Notes under the pieces: generated by a model
Databases searched by the model: none
What the model saw: only the letters and a program-made list of their open reading frames with translations
Told to the model about the DNA's origin: nothing
Source: Bacteroidales bacterium
GTDB taxonomy: Bacteria; Bacteroidota; Bacteroidia; Bacteroidales; P3
Length of the DNA stretch: 40,412 nucleotides
Reading direction: 5' to 3'
NCBI GenBank assembly: GCA_017483575.1
Contig: JAFUWF010000014.1
Location: forward strand, 1-40,412
Shown: positions 9,863 through 40,412 of the stretch, piece by piece
How positions within the stretch are numbered: position 1 is the stretch's first letter
Layout of the letters: each line of letters opens with the position of its first letter
Position numbers and translations under genes: made by a program

Positions 9863-9996
9863 GTCCGCCCTTCGGGCGTCCACCTCCCCTAACTTAGGGG
9901 AGGAGCCAAGATAGTGCATGTTGACAACTTTGGTTTCTTGGCTGCTCCCCTAAGTTAGGGGAGCTGGCAGGCGCTTGCGCCTGACTGAGGAGTGTG
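9852..9996. mobile_element. REPIN/MITE-like palindromic element
   Basis: Two inverted halves, 9852-9903 and 9945-9996, flank a centre of about 40 bp. Each half contains two hairpins: a GC one (CGCCCTTCGGGCG or AGGCGCTTGCGCCT) and CTCCCCTAACTTAGGGGAG or its mirror. Outer ends are CACACTCCTC and GAGGAGTGTG. GCCAAG/CTTGGC extends the pairing inward. There is no coding capacity, so any movement would need a transposase elsewhere. It separates ROK from GH92. Confidence 0.75.
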
Positions 9997-11585: not shown

Positions 11586-11779
11586 TTTTGTGTTGATTTT
11601 TAATGTGTTATTAATAAATTGTTATCAATTTTCCATTTGTTTTTCAAATGCAAAGATAACAAAATTTTTGATAATATGTGCAAAAAATGTATTTATTAAC
11701 ACTTTTCACCCTCCCATCCTTATCTCCTCCCACACAGCCACTTGACACCCTCCAACATCGTCCCTTCTCATATCGTATT

Positions 11780-11860
11780 CATATAGTATACATATACTTC
11801 TCATATAGTATTCATATACTATATATAAGAACTATATGAGAAGTATATGTATACTATATG
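11780..11860. repeat. Perfect 30-bp inverted repeat with 21-nt loop
   Basis: Arm 11780-11809 is the exact reverse complement of 11831-11860. Each arm stutters through variants of CATATAGTATA and CATATACTTCT, and more degenerate units flank the arms. No T-run follows, so it is not a normal terminator. Confidence 0.9.
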
Positions 11861-11944
11861 TATACTATATAAGAACAGTCGAATAAAGCACCTGTTTGGT
11901 CCCTGTTTGTTACAGCCCAAAGGGGCGTTGTATGCAAAAAATAT

Positions 11945-11997: not shown

Positions 11998-13086
11998 ATG
12001 TCTACTATCCTAGCTATAGAATCCAGTTGCGACGACACCTCGGCGGCGGTGTTGCGGGACGATGTGCTGCTGAGCAATGTCATTGCAAGCCAGAAGGTTC
12101 ACGAGCAATACGGTGGCGTGGTGCCCGAATTGGCAAGCCGTGCGCACGAACAGAATATTATTCCCGTGGTGGATGGCGCCATCCGCGAGGCGGGTATCCG
12201 CAAGGAAGAGATTGACGCCGTGGCATTCACCCGCGGGCCGGGACTGATGGGCTCGCTGATGGTGGGCGTCAGTTTCGCCAAGAGCTTCGCCCAGGCCCTG
12301 GGCAAACCCATCATCGAAGTGAACCACCTGCAGGCGCATGTGCTGAGCCACTTCATCAGACAGGAAGTACAGGAGTGTAGGAGTACAGGAGAGCAGACAA
12401 ATGCGCTGCCCGACAAGAAGCAAGAACACTCGTCTGCATTCCTGCACTCCCACACTCCCACACTCCCCTCATTCCCGTTTATCTGCCTGTTGGTTTCTGG
12501 CGGGCACACGCAGATACTTCTGTTGCACAGCCACTTCGACATGGAGATTCTGGGGCAGACGATTGACGACGCTGCTGGCGAGGCCATCGACAAGGCGGCC
12601 AAAATCATGGACCTGGGCTATCCCGGAGGTCCCATCATCGACCGTCTGGCCAAGGAGGGCGACCCTGAAGCCTTCCACTTCGCCACACCGCAGATTGCGG
12701 GATACGACTATTCGTTCTCCGGCATCAAGACGTCGTTCCTCTATTTCCTGCGCGACCGCCTGAAGGAGGACCCCGATTTCATCGAGAAGAACAAGGCCGA
12801 CCTTTGCGCCTCCATCCAGAAGACCATCGTGGACTTCCTGCTGAAGAAGGTGGAGAAAGCAGCCCTGAAACACGGCGTGCGCCAGGTGGCCATTGCCGGT
12901 GGCGTCAGCGCCAACAGCCGTTTGCGCAGCGAGCTGCAGCGCATCTGCGACAAGCACCGCTGGCAAGCCTTCATCCCTCCCTTCAAGTTCTGCACCGACA
13001 ACGCCGCCATGGTGGGCATCGCCGGATACTTCAAGTACTTGAAAGGCGAGTTCGCCGATATCTCCTTACCTCCATACACGAGATAA
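11998..13086 (+). CDS. tsaD: tRNA N6-adenosine threonylcarbamoyltransferase TsaD with an in-frame insertion
   Basis: TsaD transfers the threonylcarbamoyl group to A37 of ANN-decoding tRNAs (t6A), acting with TsaB and TsaE. The 362-residue product shows ILAIESSCDDTSAAVL, VPELASRAH, the metal-binding NHLQAH (H110, H114), LLVSGGHTQI, GEAIDKAAK, GGVSANSRLR and a final CTDNAAMVG. Start 11998 is fixed by the promoter just upstream. Residues about 122-158 have no counterpart in ordinary TsaD, which runs from the HxxxH helix straight to FPF-CLLVSGGHT; they are encoded by a paired purine/pyrimidine repeat array. The insertion is near the metal site, so if it is retained in the protein it should form a surface loop. 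The stop is followed directly by the next hairpin array. Confidence 0.95.
   Translation: MSTILAIESSCDDTSAAVLRDDVLLSNVIASQKVHEQYGGVVPELASRAHEQNIIPVVDGAIREAGIRKEEIDAVAFTRGPGLMGSLMVGVSFAKSFAQALGKPIIEVNHLQAHVLSHFIRQEVQECRSTGEQTNALPDKKQEHSSAFLHSHTPTLPSFPFICLLVSGGHTQILLLHSHFDMEILGQTIDDAAGEAIDKAAKIMDLGYPGGPIIDRLAKEGDPEAFHFATPQIAGYDYSFSGIKTSFLYFLRDRLKEDPDFIEKNKADLCASIQKTIVDFLLKKVEKAALKHGVRQVAIAGGVSANSRLRSELQRICDKHRWQAFIPPFKFCTDNAAMVGIAGYFKYLKGEFADISLPPYTR
12361..12470. repeat. In-frame inverted repeat array inside tsaD
   Basis: Arm 1 (12361-12398, variants of AGGAGTGTAGGAGTACAGG) is largely complementary to arm 2 (12432-12470, CACTCCCACACTCCCACACT). The innermost GCAGAC/GTCTGC pairs perfectly. A 33-nt loop separates them. 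The whole element is translated in frame. Confidence 0.85.
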
Positions 13087-13184
13087 AGTGGAAAGATGAA
13101 AGCGGAAAGTGGAAAGATAAAGAAAATGATAATGCTGGTTTGCGTCAGCATGGCTTTCCACTTTCCATTTTCCACTTTCCACTC
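13087..13184. repeat. Heptamer hairpin over the porP start and signal peptide
   Basis: Arm 1 (13087-13116) and arm 2 (13154-13184) are complementary at 26 of 30 positions; both are built of GTGGAAA/TTTCCAC heptamers. The porP ATG (13096) lies in a mismatched part of arm 1. The 37-nt loop encodes the start of the signal-peptide core. Arm 1 begins at the tsaD stop. Confidence 0.9.
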
Positions 13185-14112
13185 GCTCCGCGCGCAGGAC
13201 ATACACTTCTCCATGCTGGACCTGGACCCGTTGCTGTTCAACCCTGCCTACAGCGGATTCTTCGACGGCGTGGGACGCTTCGGCGTCATCTACCGCAACC
13301 AGTGGGCTTCCGTAACCACCCCGTTCCAGACCATCAGCGCCACCGCCGAGCTGAGCCTCATGCGCAGCAAGCGCAACCACAACGGCCTCAGCATCGGTGC
13401 CTGGGTGAGCAACGACCGCGCCGGCGAGTTGAACTACGGTTCCACCTCCACCAGCGCCATCCTCTCCTACTTCCAGGCCATAGGCGACGGCGAGCACCTC
13501 GTATCCTTCGGTGCCGAAGCCGGAGTGGGCCAGGTGGGGTTCAACGTGGAGGACATCGATCTTGCCGACGGCACGGAGACCTTCGTGCGCGAGAAGGCCC
13601 TCTACCCCACCCTGGGGGCCGGTGTGGCATGGTTCTGGCAGGTGCACGACCAGCTCTATGCCAAGGCAGGCCTCTCGCTGCGCAACATCAACGAGCCCGA
13701 CATCTCCTACCTGGGCCTCAGCGACACCCGCCTCAGCCGCCGTTGGAACGCCTATGCGCGTGCCGAATGGCGCTTCCACCCCCAGTGGAGCGTGCTGCCG
13801 GTGGTGGGGTTCCAGATGCAAAAGGAGTTCAGCGAACTGGTCTACGGTGCCGACCTGAAATGGTATTTCAACGAGCGTGCCCGCAACTACCTCACCTTCA
13901 GCGCCGGCCTGCTGGGAAGACACGGCGACGCATTGTCGGTGAACCTGGCCGTGGAATGGACCTCGTGGATCTTCGGATTGAGCTACGATGCCAACCTCTC
14001 CACCCTGGCCGAAGCCAGCCATACCCTGGGAGCCTTCGAGATAGGTGTCATTTACAAAATAGGAAAAAAGGACGGCATCCACCGCGGTGCGCTGCCGTGC
14101 CCGATAATATAA
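13096..14112 (+). CDS. porP: PorP/SprF family type IX secretion outer-membrane protein
   Basis: A 338-residue PorP/SprF barrel protein: after the signal peptide comes QDIHFSMLDLDPLLFNPAYSG, the family's opening signature, then YRNQW, SIGAWVSNDRAGELNYGSTS and LSYFQAIGDGEHLVSFGAEAG. PorP proteins help present cargo or energise type IX secretion at the outer membrane, with a PorE-like OmpA partner. The signal peptide is odd: its C-terminal half (FHFPFSTFHS) is encoded by tandem TTTCCAC heptamers. An internal ATG at 13126 is an alternative start, but the first start aligns residue for residue with the next gene's signal. It follows tsaD by nine bases. SprF-type paralogues not tied to secretion also exist. 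Confidence 0.88.
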   Translation: MKAESGKIKKMIMLVCVSMAFHFPFSTFHSLRAQDIHFSMLDLDPLLFNPAYSGFFDGVGRFGVIYRNQWASVTTPFQTISATAELSLMRSKRNHNGLSIGAWVSNDRAGELNYGSTSTSAILSYFQAIGDGEHLVSFGAEAGVGQVGFNVEDIDLADGTETFVREKALYPTLGAGVAWFWQVHDQLYAKAGLSLRNINEPDISYLGLSDTRLSRRWNAYARAEWRFHPQWSVLPVVGFQMQKEFSELVYGADLKWYFNERARNYLTFSAGLLGRHGDALSVNLAVEWTSWIFGLSYDANLSTLAEASHTLGAFEIGVIYKIGKKDGIHRGALPCPII

Positions 14113-14215
14113 ATTGAAAATTGAAAATTGAAATTATCAAAGTTCATAAACGGGCCACTGAAGTTGATGTTCTGCGTCAGCCTGATTTTCAATTTTCAAT
14201 TTTCAATTTTCAATT
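14111..14215. repeat. Heptamer hairpin over the porE-like start and signal peptide
   Basis: Arm 1 (14111-14135, TTGAAAA units) and arm 2 (about 14185-14215, TTTTCAA units) share at least 22 bp of perfect complementarity. The arrangement matches that at porP, but with another heptamer. The TTG start lies inside arm 1. Arm 1 begins at the porP stop. Confidence 0.9.
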
Positions 14216-15699
14216 CGACCTTTGGCCAATACCGCGTGGTGCATCTGGAGAAACCGTTCAACACGCCGGGGAGCGAGACCGGTGCCCTGCGCGTGGGCGA
14301 CACGGCGATGGTCTACTCGTCGATGCCGCCCAAGGTGAAGACCAACAGCCACTTCGACATGGGCGGGGGCGTGATGCAGGTCTACCAGGCCCGTATCGCC
14401 AAGAGCGGCAAGGTATCGCGTCCGAAGCTGGACCGTTGGGGGCTCAACAGCCGTCGCGACCACACAGGCAACCTCGCCATCGACCCCCTGAGCCAGGACC
14501 TCTACTTCACCCGTGGCGACGTGGAGACGCTGGACTGCGAGATATGGTTCGCCAAGAAGAAGAAACGCCGCGGATGGGAGAAGCCCGTCAAACTCAAAGG
14601 ACCGGTGAACCTCAAGGGGTACACCTCGACGCACCCCGCCGTGGGGCGTTTGGCGGACAGCACGGTGATACTCTACTTCGTCAGCAACCGTCCGGGCGGT
14701 CTGGGCGGCAACGACATCTGGTACACCCTGGTCAAAGGGACGACAACGTCGGAGTGCGTGAACCTGGGCCCGATGGTGAACTCGGCGGCGGACGAGCTGA
14801 CACCCTTCTACGACCAGCGCAACGGTGTGCTCTACTTCTCGTCGGACCGCGAGGGTGGCCGCGGTGGCCACGACATCTATTGCGCCCAAGGCCATCGCAA
14901 CACATGGCAGCAGGCCGAGGCCGTTTGCGGATGCCTCAACAGCGAGCAGAACGACCTCTACTTCAACATCTCCGACTACGACAGCCTCAGCGGACGCCCC
15001 ATCGGGGGATTCCTGGCCTCCAACCGTAGCGACAGCTATTTCCTCACGGACTCCACCTGCTGCAACGACCTCTACCGTTGGGGCCTCGACTCCGGCTTTG
15101 TCATCGAGCTGCCCATAGTGGACACCGTGGTGGAGAACATCGACACCATCCAGCAGCGCGTGCTGAGGTTCATGTTCCCCCTGTTCCTCTATTTCCACAA
15201 CGACGAACCCGACCCGCAGAGCCGCGAGGTGGTGACGGAGACAACCTATCCCGACTGCCAACGCCACTATGCCTCGTTGCGCAACGAGTACATCTCGCGC
15301 CAACGGAACGCCGACGACTCTTCGATGATGGCCCTCTTCTTCGACACCTGCGTGGTGGGCAATTTCAACCGCACCGAGGAGCTGCTGGAGTACGTGGAGA
15401 GCCTGCTCGATGCCGGCCACAGCATCACCATCACCATTGCCGGCTACGCCAGCCCGTTGGCCCGCAGCGACTACAACCTCAACCTCTCGCGTCGCCGCAT
15501 CGGCAGTTTCATTAATATGATACGCACGTGGCGCGGAGGGGTCTTCGAGGACGCCCTCACCGAAGGGCGCCTCTTCATCGAGCAGAAGCCCCACGGCGCC
15601 GTGGAGCCCACCACCGAGAGCACCTCGCAGGACCCCGTCTACGGCCTCCCCGCCGCCCTCGCCCGCCGCATCGAGATCATTGGCTGCAGAATAAAATAA
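14128..15699 (+). CDS. PorE-like PD40/OmpA-family protein, type IX secretion partner of PorP
   Basis: A 523-residue exported protein. The middle has WD40-like PD40 blades (STHPAVGRLADSTVILYFVS then NRPGGLGGNDIWYT; GVLYFSSDREGGRGGHDIY; NDLYFNISD). The C-terminus is OmpA-like and peptidoglycan-binding (ITIAGYASPLARSDYNLNLSRRR). PorP genes are commonly paired with such a protein, which anchors the complex to the cell wall. Classical PorE is a lipoprotein, but no lipobox is visible here; the signal ends near STFGQ. The start is taken as TTG 14128, because it aligns the signal with that of PorP; ATG 14167 is the alternative. The porP stop is 15 bases upstream, so the two form an operon. Confidence 0.8.
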   Translation: MKLSKFINGPLKLMFCVSLIFNFQFSIFNSTFGQYRVVHLEKPFNTPGSETGALRVGDTAMVYSSMPPKVKTNSHFDMGGGVMQVYQARIAKSGKVSRPKLDRWGLNSRRDHTGNLAIDPLSQDLYFTRGDVETLDCEIWFAKKKKRRGWEKPVKLKGPVNLKGYTSTHPAVGRLADSTVILYFVSNRPGGLGGNDIWYTLVKGTTTSECVNLGPMVNSAADELTPFYDQRNGVLYFSSDREGGRGGHDIYCAQGHRNTWQQAEAVCGCLNSEQNDLYFNISDYDSLSGRPIGGFLASNRSDSYFLTDSTCCNDLYRWGLDSGFVIELPIVDTVVENIDTIQQRVLRFMFPLFLYFHNDEPDPQSREVVTETTYPDCQRHYASLRNEYISRQRNADDSSMMALFFDTCVVGNFNRTEELLEYVESLLDAGHSITITIAGYASPLARSDYNLNLSRRRIGSFINMIRTWRGGVFEDALTEGRLFIEQKPHGAVEPTTESTSQDPVYGLPAALARRIEIIGCRIK

Positions 15700-18911: not shown

Positions 18912-19469
18912 ATGGAAGATAAAGAATTGCAACAACTGTTCGACGCCAAACGCTGGCAAGAGGAGAACCAACGCCAGCAGGAGTCCATCGCCGCCGCCAC
19001 CGCAGGCCACCGCCGCTGGCTGGGCTGGGGCGTCGCCGCCGCCGTGATGATTGGCCTGCTGGGGCTGACCCCGCTGCTTCGCAGCGAAGAAAAAGAGGCG
19101 GTGCTTGTGGCAGAGGCCGGAGAGGTTATAGAAGAAATAGAGGCGATAGAAACTATAGAAAATCTAGAAAATCTAGAAAATTTAGAAAATCTAGAAAAGC
19201 CAGAGCCTATCCCCTCTATCGAATCTATCCCCTCTATCCCTTCTACCCCCTCTATCCCCTCCCCCACGCAGGCGGCACCTGCCCCCGCCACCCCCGCCGC
19301 ACCCCCTACCCCTGCCGCTCCCCGCATACATCGCCGCCGCGGCACCCTCCTGGCCGAAACGGCACGGCAGCCGGAACGCCCGAAGGTGTCGCCCCTCATT
19401 GCACACTACCTCGACATCCCCGACAGCATCAACTTCACCTCCAACATCGTCATTCCATTAAAAAAATAG
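18912..19469 (+). CDS. Putative single-TM anti-sigma factor with repeat-encoded linker, cassette 2
   Basis: A 185-residue paralogue of the protein at 16269. It starts EDKELQQLFDAKR, has one membrane segment at about 36-53 (LGWGVAAAVMIGLLGLTPL), then a periplasmic tail. Residues 72-118 are built of repeats: an acidic run with IENLENLENLENLE, then a Pro run IPSIESIPSIPSTPSIPS. These come from a purine-rich array followed by a pyrimidine-rich one, the same design as the inverted arrays elsewhere. The conserved C-terminal part (LLAETARQPERPKVSPLIAH) follows. The linker is likely extended and may vary in length. The anti-sigma function is inferred from context. Confidence 0.7.
   Translation: MEDKELQQLFDAKRWQEENQRQQESIAAATAGHRRWLGWGVAAAVMIGLLGLTPLLRSEEKEAVLVAEAGEVIEEIEAIETIENLENLENLENLEKPEPIPSIESIPSIPSTPSIPSPTQAAPAPATPAAPPTPAAPRIHRRRGTLLAETARQPERPKVSPLIAHYLDIPDSINFTSNIVIPLKK
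19125..19265. repeat. Purine array then pyrimidine array in the anti-sigma gene
   Basis: 19125-19199 is built of ATAGAAA and TAGAAAATC (9-nt period, about four copies); 19206-19265 is built of CTCTATCCC units. GATAGA and TCTATC segments are complementary, so partial hairpins can form. It is translated in frame. Confidence 0.8.
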
Positions 19470-29724: not shown

Positions 29725-31113
29725 ATGAAAACATTGATACATAATGCGACCATCGTCAACGAGGGTCGCATTTTCGTTGGCTCCGTCGTCATCGAGGGCG
29801 ACAAGATAGCCAAAGTGACCGAGAATTCCGAGTACTCCGAAGCCTCCGGCTTTTCAAAGACCATCGACGCCACAGGCATGCTCCTCCTGCCTGGAGTGAT
29901 TGATACCCATGTGCATTTCCGCGACGGCGGCAACAGCGAGAACCCCGCAGGCACCTTCTACAGCGAGAGCCGCGCGGCCCGTGCCGGCGGTGTCACTTCC
30001 GTTGTCGACATGCCCAACACCAAGCCCCAGACCGTGGGACTGGCCGAACTGGAGGCCAAGGAGGCCCTGGCGGAAAGGGACAGCGCCGTCAACTACGGTT
30101 TCATGCTCGGCGCCACCAACGACAACATCGACGACCTGCTGGCCATCGAGCCCACACGCTATGCCGCCATCAAGCTCTTCCTCGGCTCGTCGACGGGCAA
30201 CATGCTCGTCAACAACCCCGAGCAGCTGGACCACCTCTTCCGCGATGCCAAGAAACTGATTGTGGCCCATTGCGAGGAGGAGCGCGTGGTGCAGGCCAAC
30301 CTGGCCAATGCCAAACGCGAATTCCAGGGCACCCCCGACGAGACCGCCGCCCTGCACCCCAAGATCCGCAACAACGAGGCCTGCTTCCTCAGCACCTACC
30401 ACGCCATAGAGCGTGCCCGGAAGTACGGCACCCGCTTCCATGTGGCCCACATCTCCACGGCAACGGAGCTGTCGCTGCTCTCCAATTTCGACCTCGAGAA
30501 GAAGAATGTCACCGCCGAGGTGACGCCCAACCACCTTTGTTTCGACGACCGCGACTATGCCGAGTTGGGGAACAAGATCAAGTGCAACCCCGCCATCAAG
30601 ACCAACGACGACCGCATGGCGCTGTGGCTCGCCCTCGAGGACGGCCTCATCGACACCATCGCCACCGACCATGCCCCCCACCCCCTCGAGGCCAAGATGA
30701 AGCCCTACTTCGACGCCCCCAGCGGCATACCCTCCATCCAGCACTCGCTGCAGATGATGCTGGAGGTGGTATTTGGAGTGGAAAGCGAAAAGTGGAAAGT
30801 GGAAAATTCAGAAGAGCTGACCGAGAAACTCTCCACATTCCACTTTCCACTTTCAACTTTAATCTCGAAGATGTGCCACAACCCCGCCCTGCTCTTCGGC
30901 ATCCGCGGCCGCGGATTCATCCGCAAAGGCTACCAGGCCGACCTCGTGCTGGTGCGTACAGGGGTGGAAGAGACCGTCACGCGCGAATCATTATTATATA
31001 AGTGTGGTTGGAGTCCCCTCGAAGGGCAGACCTTCCACACCCACATCGAGCACGTATGGGTCAACGGAGACGACAGCGGTTCCGGAGCCGAACCGTTGAC
31101 GTTCTCCAAATAA
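29725..31113 (+). CDS. pyrC: Dihydroorotase with an in-frame repeat-encoded insertion
   Basis: Dihydroorotase closes carbamoyl-aspartate to dihydroorotate in pyrimidine synthesis. The 462-residue product has the metal-binding GVIDTHVHFRDG (H62, H64), RAGGVTSVVDMPNT, AIKLFLGSSTG with the carboxylated Lys at about 150, IVAHCEEE, HVAHISTATEL and the catalytic ATDHAPHPLE. The start at 29725 is two bases after the WG-protein stop. Residues about 352-379 (VESEKWKVENSEE....STFHFPLSTL) interrupt the usual path from the MLE helix to KMCHNPA. They come from inverted heptamer arrays. All catalytic residues lie before the insertion, so activity is expected. A strong terminator follows. Confidence 0.93.
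   Translation: MKTLIHNATIVNEGRIFVGSVVIEGDKIAKVTENSEYSEASGFSKTIDATGMLLLPGVIDTHVHFRDGGNSENPAGTFYSESRAARAGGVTSVVDMPNTKPQTVGLAELEAKEALAERDSAVNYGFMLGATNDNIDDLLAIEPTRYAAIKLFLGSSTGNMLVNNPEQLDHLFRDAKKLIVAHCEEERVVQANLANAKREFQGTPDETAALHPKIRNNEACFLSTYHAIERARKYGTRFHVAHISTATELSLLSNFDLEKKNVTAEVTPNHLCFDDRDYAELGNKIKCNPAIKTNDDRMALWLALEDGLIDTIATDHAPHPLEAKMKPYFDAPSGIPSIQHSLQMMLEVVFGVESEKWKVENSEELTEKLSTFHFPLSTLISKMCHNPALLFGIRGRGFIRKGYQADLVLVRTGVEETVTRESLLYKCGWSPLEGQTFHTHIEHVWVNGDDSGSGAEPLTFSK
30780..30860. repeat. In-frame inverted heptamer array inside pyrC
   Basis: Arm 1 (about 30780-30806, GTGGAAA units) and arm 2 (about 30835-30860, TTTCCAC units) share GAAAGTGGAAAGTGGAA in perfect complement. The loop encodes NSEELTEKL. 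The same heptamer is used at porP. Confidence 0.88.
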
Positions 31114-40155: not shown

Positions 40156-40412
40156 GCATAAACCCTTGCACCCTGTGCCCGCGGCAATGCCGTGTGGACC
40201 GCACCCGCGAACGCGGCTACTGCGGCGCCCCCGCCGACCCCGCCATTGCCTCCGTCACCATCCACACCGGCGAAGAACCCCCGATTTCGGGGGAACGCGA
40301 GTGGAACACGAGCGAGCCCCGGGAAAAAGGGGAACGCGAGTGGAACACGAGCGAGCCCCGGGAAAAAGGGGAACGCGAGTGGAACACGAGCGAGCCCCGG
40401 GAAAAAGGGGAA
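40140..40412 (+). CDS. Radical SAM protein (PflA-like), cut by the window edge and carrying a 39-bp repeat array
   Basis: Ninety-one codons are visible. The opening (LGLSINPCTLCPRQCRVDR, then GYCGAP) is the extra Cys motif of a PflA-like radical SAM group. HTGEEPPISGE follows. In relatives this is followed at once by a glycine-rich strand and the CxxxCxxC cluster, but here the frame enters tandem copies of GEREWNTSEPREK until the window stops. The array is in frame, without stops. Whether the radical SAM core resumes is not visible. The start at 40140 overlaps the lipoprotein gene; TTG at 40152 is possible. Confidence 0.75.
   Translation, partial: MQLGLSINPCTLCPRQCRVDRTRERGYCGAPADPAIASVTIHTGEEPPISGEREWNTSEPREKGEREWNTSEPREKGEREWNTSEPREKGE
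40293..40412 (+). repeat. 39-bp tandem repeat, three copies reaching the window edge
   Basis: The unit begins GAACGCGAGTGGAACACGAG and recurs at 40293, 40332 and 40371 without a single change. It encodes 13 residues per copy in frame. The array reaches the end of the sequence, so copy number is a minimum. Confidence 0.95.

Follow-up and report, generated by a model that had tools for sequence, protein, structure and literature searches.

A dispersed, protein-coding hairpin repeat lies across putative signal-peptide starts in a genus of rumen Bacteroidales

The window, the whole 40,412-nucleotide stretch of Bacteroidales DNA analysed here, carries porP and a porE-like gene behind tsaD, and each of these two genes starts within a hairpin whose arms are inverted heptamer arrays (Table 1). 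The second product is best called PorE-like, its NCBIfam score lying far under the cut-off. The arms are 30 nt each with 87% complementarity at porP, and 23 nt each with 100% complementarity at the porE-like gene; the predicted RNA folds have z-scores of −5.8 and −4.8, and none of 200 dinucleotide shuffles was as stable at either locus. Arm 1 starts at, or inside, the upstream gene's stop codon and takes in the start codon, and arm 2 lies at +58 to +87 from the ATG of porP and at +57 to +87 from the TTG of the porE-like gene, which agrees to within one base with an earlier, sequence-only reading of the locus that had described the arrays. The two signal peptides, MKAESGKIKKMIMLVCVSMAFHFPFSTFHSLRAQ and LKLSKFINGPLKLMFCVSLIFNFQFSIFNSTFGQ, align without a gap and have C-V-S and a pattern of F and S in common; as that reading had noted, C16-V17-S18, F21, F23, F25-S26, F28 and S30 all coincide.

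Table 1. Genes, hairpin arms and loops in the window.
Feature	Positions	Strand	Remarks
tsaD-internal paired arms	12372..12458	+	GGAGTGT / CACTCCC type; in frame; TIGR03723 match split into two stretches
porP arm 1	13087..13116	+	GTGGAAA-type heptamers; directly after tsaD stop; includes ATG 13096
porP (PorP/SprF family)	13096..14112	+	PF11751 and TIGR03519, both above cut-offs
porP loop	13117..13153	+	core TGCGTCAGC at 13141-13149
porP arm 2	13154..13183	+	TTTCCAC-type heptamers; encodes FHFPFSTFHS
porE-like arm 1	14111..14133	+	TTGAAAA heptamers; includes TTG 14128
porE-like gene	14128..15699	+	NCBIfam T9SS_PorE 111.3 bits, cut-off 600; Pfam PD40 above cut-off
porE-like loop	14134..14184	+	core TGCGTCAGC at 14173-14181
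porE-like arm 2	14185..14215	+	array, paired part 14187-14209; TTTTCAA heptamers; encodes FNFQFSIFNS
pyrC (dihydroorotase)-internal paired arms	30789..30853	+	GTGGAAA type; in frame

The two hairpins belong to a family of repeats of about 50–140 bp found in one rumen genus of the Bacteroidales. In each copy, a purine-rich arm of short tandem units, mostly heptamers, is separated from its pyrimidine-rich complement by a loop in which TGCG(T/C)(C/A)AGC often occurs. Some copies are intergenic, others interrupt housekeeping proteins in frame at loops that tolerate them, and others again span the starts of genes for putatively secreted products. We sampled the genome, which is 78% complete, as 440 kb: the window and a further 20 stretches, each of 20 kb. 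Arrays in this sample number 68 at period 7, 36 at period 11, 17 at period 9 and 8 at period 14; in one dinucleotide shuffle there are none. Among the 25 pairs of same-period arrays no more than 150 nt apart, the units are inverted in 18 and direct in none. A more sensitive test found 76 heptamer arrays, 27 of them with an inverted partner within 150 nt (each arm of a pair counted separately), 2 with a direct one and none with one in shuffled flanks; the 49 arrays that lack an inverted partner are counted as solo. The heptamers are highly diverse (AATTGAG, AGTGGAG, AGGTCGG, AGTTAAG and GGTTATT, among others). The core TGCGTCAGC, or a near variant, adjoins arm 2 in the loops of many paired arrays, coding and noncoding. 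As a word it is not over-represented in the sample (16 occurrences, where shorter words predict 14.5 and a shuffle has 9), so the case for a core depends on its position in the loop; 9 of the 16 occurrences lie in listed inverted repeats. Within the genus, 15 of 59 genomes (own included) contain the exact core-plus-arm pattern, and none contains a reversed control. An array of three TTTTCAA units alone is not restricted to the genus: among 198 genomes from the order it occurs in 8 (own included), and the reversed control matched a few too.

Other repeats were seen alongside. Long AT-rich palindromes of 11-mers (ATATAGTATAC), a separate dispersed family, lie at window positions 11765-11875, L002:14395, L005:4734, L006:12437, L009:19777 and L013:6021, several with TCGAC/GTCGA flanks, and dispersed CTCCCCTAACTTAGGGGAG palindromes form inverted pairs at window positions 9880-9967, L008:17773 and L006:12616. 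The window further contains 9-mer arrays at 19147-19261, purine-rich TAGAAAATC followed by pyrimidine-rich CTATCCCCT within one open frame, and a perfect 39-nt tandem repeat of 3.2 copies at 40290-40412 that reaches the window end.

Paired arrays are not peculiar to signal peptides. The sequence-only reading had described them at porP and the porE-like gene; the same structure sits in frame within two enzymes of the same window, tsaD and pyrC, and the idea that the arrays are specific to signal peptides was rejected. In a crude frame test, 39 of the 76 heptamer arrays fell inside open frames, against 1,407 of 2,000 random places (frames of at least 180 codons, at least 60 codons from either end, porP arm 2 being counted via an overlapping frame); arrays are therefore rarer than chance inside long frames, yet common there. 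An insert peptide, KIENSADASNNSQFSILNSQF and variants, is common to 8 of 14 listed frames. Pfam matches on the insert-bearing frames are MnmA, TopA, GH94, CobW, QueG and a glycosyltransferase, and one frame has Fn3/CHB_HEX; only the MnmA and TopA carriers also reach NCBIfam cut-offs, and L063 has no NCBIfam match at all. Five of the eight inserts, judged by eye, read IENG, whereas a plain array of heptamers would give IEN-stop, a hint that the frame may have been kept open.

Comparison of orthologs shows these inserts to be variable. Six of 35 genomes (window, G007, G001, G004, G012 and RUG134) have a long insert in the TsaD loop, and in the other 29 the loop is short; L113 gave no alignment across the site, and L118 is a duplicate of L036. 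The TsaD inserts belong to at least three arm families, and in the roughly 90% relatives RUG12038 and UBA4347 the loop is short, with a fragment of another palindrome in UBA4347. The PyrC site has GTGGAAA arms in G007 as in the window genome; G002 has a TGATGAG-like pair there and G036 a 9-mer array, and the site is short in G009 and G022. No target duplication was evident by eye at the TsaD and PyrC sites.

The same type of signal peptide also stands in front of unrelated genes. Among 14 loci at which the match to porP is confined to the signal, 13 carry the GTGGAAA-type peptide (consensus MKxESGKWKVxVLICVSMAFHFPLSTFHSLxAQ or variants), some of them decayed, and L139 carries the TTGAAAA type. 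Nine of these cassette proteins were scanned for domains. Five belong to different families (DUF6089/outer-membrane barrel, M23 peptidase, DUF5683, NlpC/P60 and FGE-sulfatase), one has a weak TPR match and three have no match; four of the five outside the scan look, by eye, like scanned ones. A profile built from ten signal peptides (E ≤ 1e-6), run over the genus and other families with up to 126 candidates scored per genome, matched in at least 18 of 61 genomes, at least 18 of 37 within the genus (own included) and, among the candidates scored, in none of 24 genomes of other families; a few matches with stops are in-gene copies. The mobile signal-peptide module proposed as one option by the sequence-only reading is supported in that one cassette type sits on unrelated genes. 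The cassettes mostly end in x-A-Q, the window porE-like signal in FGQ; an AQ cleavage site would accord with the Q-rule of Bacteroidetes (PMC5837995). The maximum hydropathy over 10 residues is 2.3–3.4 in six cassette peptides and 2.1–3.3 in five array-free porP orthologs, ranges that overlap. The cassette peptides are putative export signals. Two near-identical signal-peptide starts at contig ends in the window genome (L053 on C19 and L054 on C16 of G000), one with a stop right after the start, could be a single locus or a duplicated one, and at L141 (G007:C55) a GTGGAAA-type signal peptide is followed by five residues and a stop codon.

At the orthologous porP and porE starts of other species, both arms have given way together to different sequences that still pair, or are missing. 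GTGGAAA arms occur at the window porP and in G036, and TTGAAAA arms in G007 (UBA3684), RUG12038, UBA4347 and G012. Other heptamers form the arms in G010 (AATTCTC-like), G019 (AAAAGTG) and, at both genes, G002 (AAAGTAAAAACT), and a non-heptamer CCTCACCCC repeat does so at both porP and porE of G001, G004 and RUG134. Weak GACAAC arms were seen at porP of G009 and G022. Arms are absent at most other loci, and porE of G015 has kept arm 2 alone; relatives lacking an arm, which the sequence-only reading had taken to count against its claim, thus exist. The CCTCACCC-type cassette, searched for in 8 genomes, was found at porP and porE only (5 matches, in G001, G004 and G015).

Arm and loop covariation was assessed in 65 assembled regions, of which 41 entered the arm-pairing test and 39 the loop test; regions without a core match (those with no cassette and those of the CCTCACCC and AAAGTAAA types) and, by hand, porE of G023 were excluded, and three whose cores the rule had probably mis-assigned (L061, L066 and L137) were retained. 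The regions' own arms gave a pairing sum of 794.6, against 589.5 (sd 26) with arms 2 permuted (0/5,000), and when arms were permuted within arm families the total was again exceeded in 0 of 5,000. Taken singly, the GTGGAAA family (beta) shows covariation (3/5,000), which was not seen in TTGAAAA (alpha, the main family; 569/5,000) or TTTTTCC (841/5,000). Covariation is therefore mainly between arm families, with some left in beta. The sequence-only reading had called the arms covarying from two loci, but unlike arms at different loci of one genome are not comparative covariation; as to the compensatory changes it proposed to look for in related genomes, joint replacement of both arms is real between families, beta shows some residual covariation, and none is seen in alpha. 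Loops change together with arms: for the stretch upstream of the core, the nearest neighbour is of the same arm family in 25 of 39 regions, as many occurring in 2 of 5,000 permutations, although in beta the stretch includes part of arm 1, which biases the test toward a positive result. Loop stretches are 89% identical between porP and porE of G007, and 91% between porE of G007 and porP of UBA4347.

These data bear on a possible origin in place, in which slippage would grow the arrays, template switching within the hairpin would copy arm 2 from arm 1, and nothing would move. The solo arrays fit such turnover, as do the signal peptides with arm 2 alone (arm 1 is absent in about half of the signal-peptide copies in the window genome), and slippage is an idea already published for heptamers, in excerpts of PMC4692102. 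Slippage does not explain why loops track arm families over genes and species, and the lack of residual covariation in the TTGAAAA family also speaks against it; we consider this origin unlikely as the whole account.

An RNA switch, in which the hairpin would mask the start codon and couple translation of porP and porE either to export or to the upstream gene's translation, was the other option of the sequence-only reading. It draws on the stable predicted hairpins, the start codons inside arm 1 and the residual covariation in the GTGGAAA family. Against it, the hairpins within tsaD and pyrC are equally stable (z −6.1 and −5.1), the TTGAAAA family lacks residual covariation, and many orthologs have no arms. 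An automatic arm test (score of at least 12 and beyond 20 shuffles) was positive at 11 of 37 porP and 9 of 37 porE loci, counts in which the arm-bearing porP of L026 and L035 are overlooked through window placement and the look-alikes L036 and L118 stand as two loci; of another set of 24 loci, five lie on contigs equal in length to ones already counted, and twelve were left out. Among 18 signal-peptide copies hand-chosen from 30 loci of the window genome, 8 have arms scoring above all 50 shuffles and 10 do not (one tie). A riboswitch would show a conserved structure with compensatory change in orthologs, which the porP loci do not display. We thus regard the switch as improbable, and the hairpin may affect porP translation incidentally. 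Convergence on look-alike low-complexity signal peptides, or assembly errors, might be invoked given that metagenome assemblies are among the genomes compared and that the window genome is incomplete, but unrelated genes have non-repeat loop DNA in common and the pattern recurs, with open frames, across assemblies from several projects, which makes this explanation very hard to credit.

Among known systems, the closest in working are the Rickettsia palindromic elements (RPEs), small palindromes inserted without loss of frame into many unrelated protein genes, where they are translated (Ogata et al. 2000, 2002, cited via PMC10969869). The rumen repeats, compared by description only, are likewise small palindromes translated in frame within unrelated protein genes, as the eight-frame insert, tsaD and pyrC show; unlike RPEs, which have one conserved sequence, they have arms made of short-tandem arrays that can stand in for one another, and their copies form signal peptides. 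REP elements, tagged GTAG or CGTC and associated with RAYT transposases, are short dispersed palindromes with some copies in genes (excerpts of PMC3733652). The rumen repeats share these traits and a CGTC within the core, whereas their arms are longer, built of heptamers and variable in sequence. Heptanucleotide arrays are described as STRR-type repeats of cyanobacteria and GGGAATC of Xanthomonas (part of PMC4692102) and as TAACTGA arrays of Beggiatoaceae and some Bacteroidetes (part of PMC4679880). They are similarly dispersed 7-nt units, frequently near start codons and now and then in open frames, but mostly a single direct unit, where the rumen family has a variety of units, paired in inverted orientation on either side of a loop.

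Three Y1_Tnp genes were inspected, and heptamer arrays occur at one of the three loci, as a pair within the 3.2 kb locus, with another palindrome closer. At this Y1 transposase-like gene (L083, G000:C5:136924-137163; L007:15966-17532), TGGAGCGCCGGC palindromes flank and the heptamer hairpin is about 0.7 kb off. As in MITEs the copies have inverted ends; conserved ends matching a transposase and, by eye at TsaD and PyrC, a target duplication were not found, and arm sequence varies among copies. BrickBuilt MITEs are non-autonomous and consist of tandem units enclosed by conserved inverted ends. The rumen repeats resemble them in being non-autonomous elements of Bacteroidales with tandem units and inverted ends, and differ in that BrickBuilt elements are longer, with the tandem units inside the ends, whereas in the rumen repeats the inverted arms themselves are built of the tandem units. 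BrickBuilt elements belong to Porphyromonas gingivalis and are named in PMC5771137.

We conclude, with a probability of roughly 70%, that the hairpins are copies of a dispersed, protein-coding repeat, RPE-like in its working, that has repeatedly been adopted as a signal peptide. Such a repeat would make good raw material for one. GTGGAAA arrays translate to VESGKWK and their complement to FPLSTFH, and TTTTCAA arrays to FSIFNFQ in every frame without stops. Three 7-nt units equal seven codons and 7 is not divisible by 3, so that the same peptide, cyclically shifted, is read in all three frames and the phase of insertion would barely matter. The Lys/Glu-rich purine arm would supply the start codon and lysines, and its reverse complement Phe, Ser, Leu and Ile; an inserted copy would take over the n- and h-regions while the gene's own cleavage site, mostly x-A-Q, would remain. 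The arms would stay paired because they are gained and lost as a unit, not through selection for an RNA switch. In-place turnover of arms may act as well.

A further step, which we put forward tentatively, is that the signal peptide is itself mobile: the hairpin would be moved by its shape and not by its sequence, its frame-independent heptamer arms would give the n- and h-regions, and selfish DNA would partly supply and swap export signals. Arms and loop change jointly at porP and porE between species, in keeping with the module of the sequence-only reading. No transposase link, autonomous partner or strain-level movement was found; all named relatives are metagenome assemblies.

Open-licence full texts yielded no account of signal peptides encoded by hairpin repeats. 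Arms that change wholly and yet still pair would call for a mover that recognises structure independently of sequence, or for homogenisation of the arms. For the genus, insertion of a repeat that codes for the same hydrophobic peptide in every frame would offer a route to export signals distinct from point mutation.
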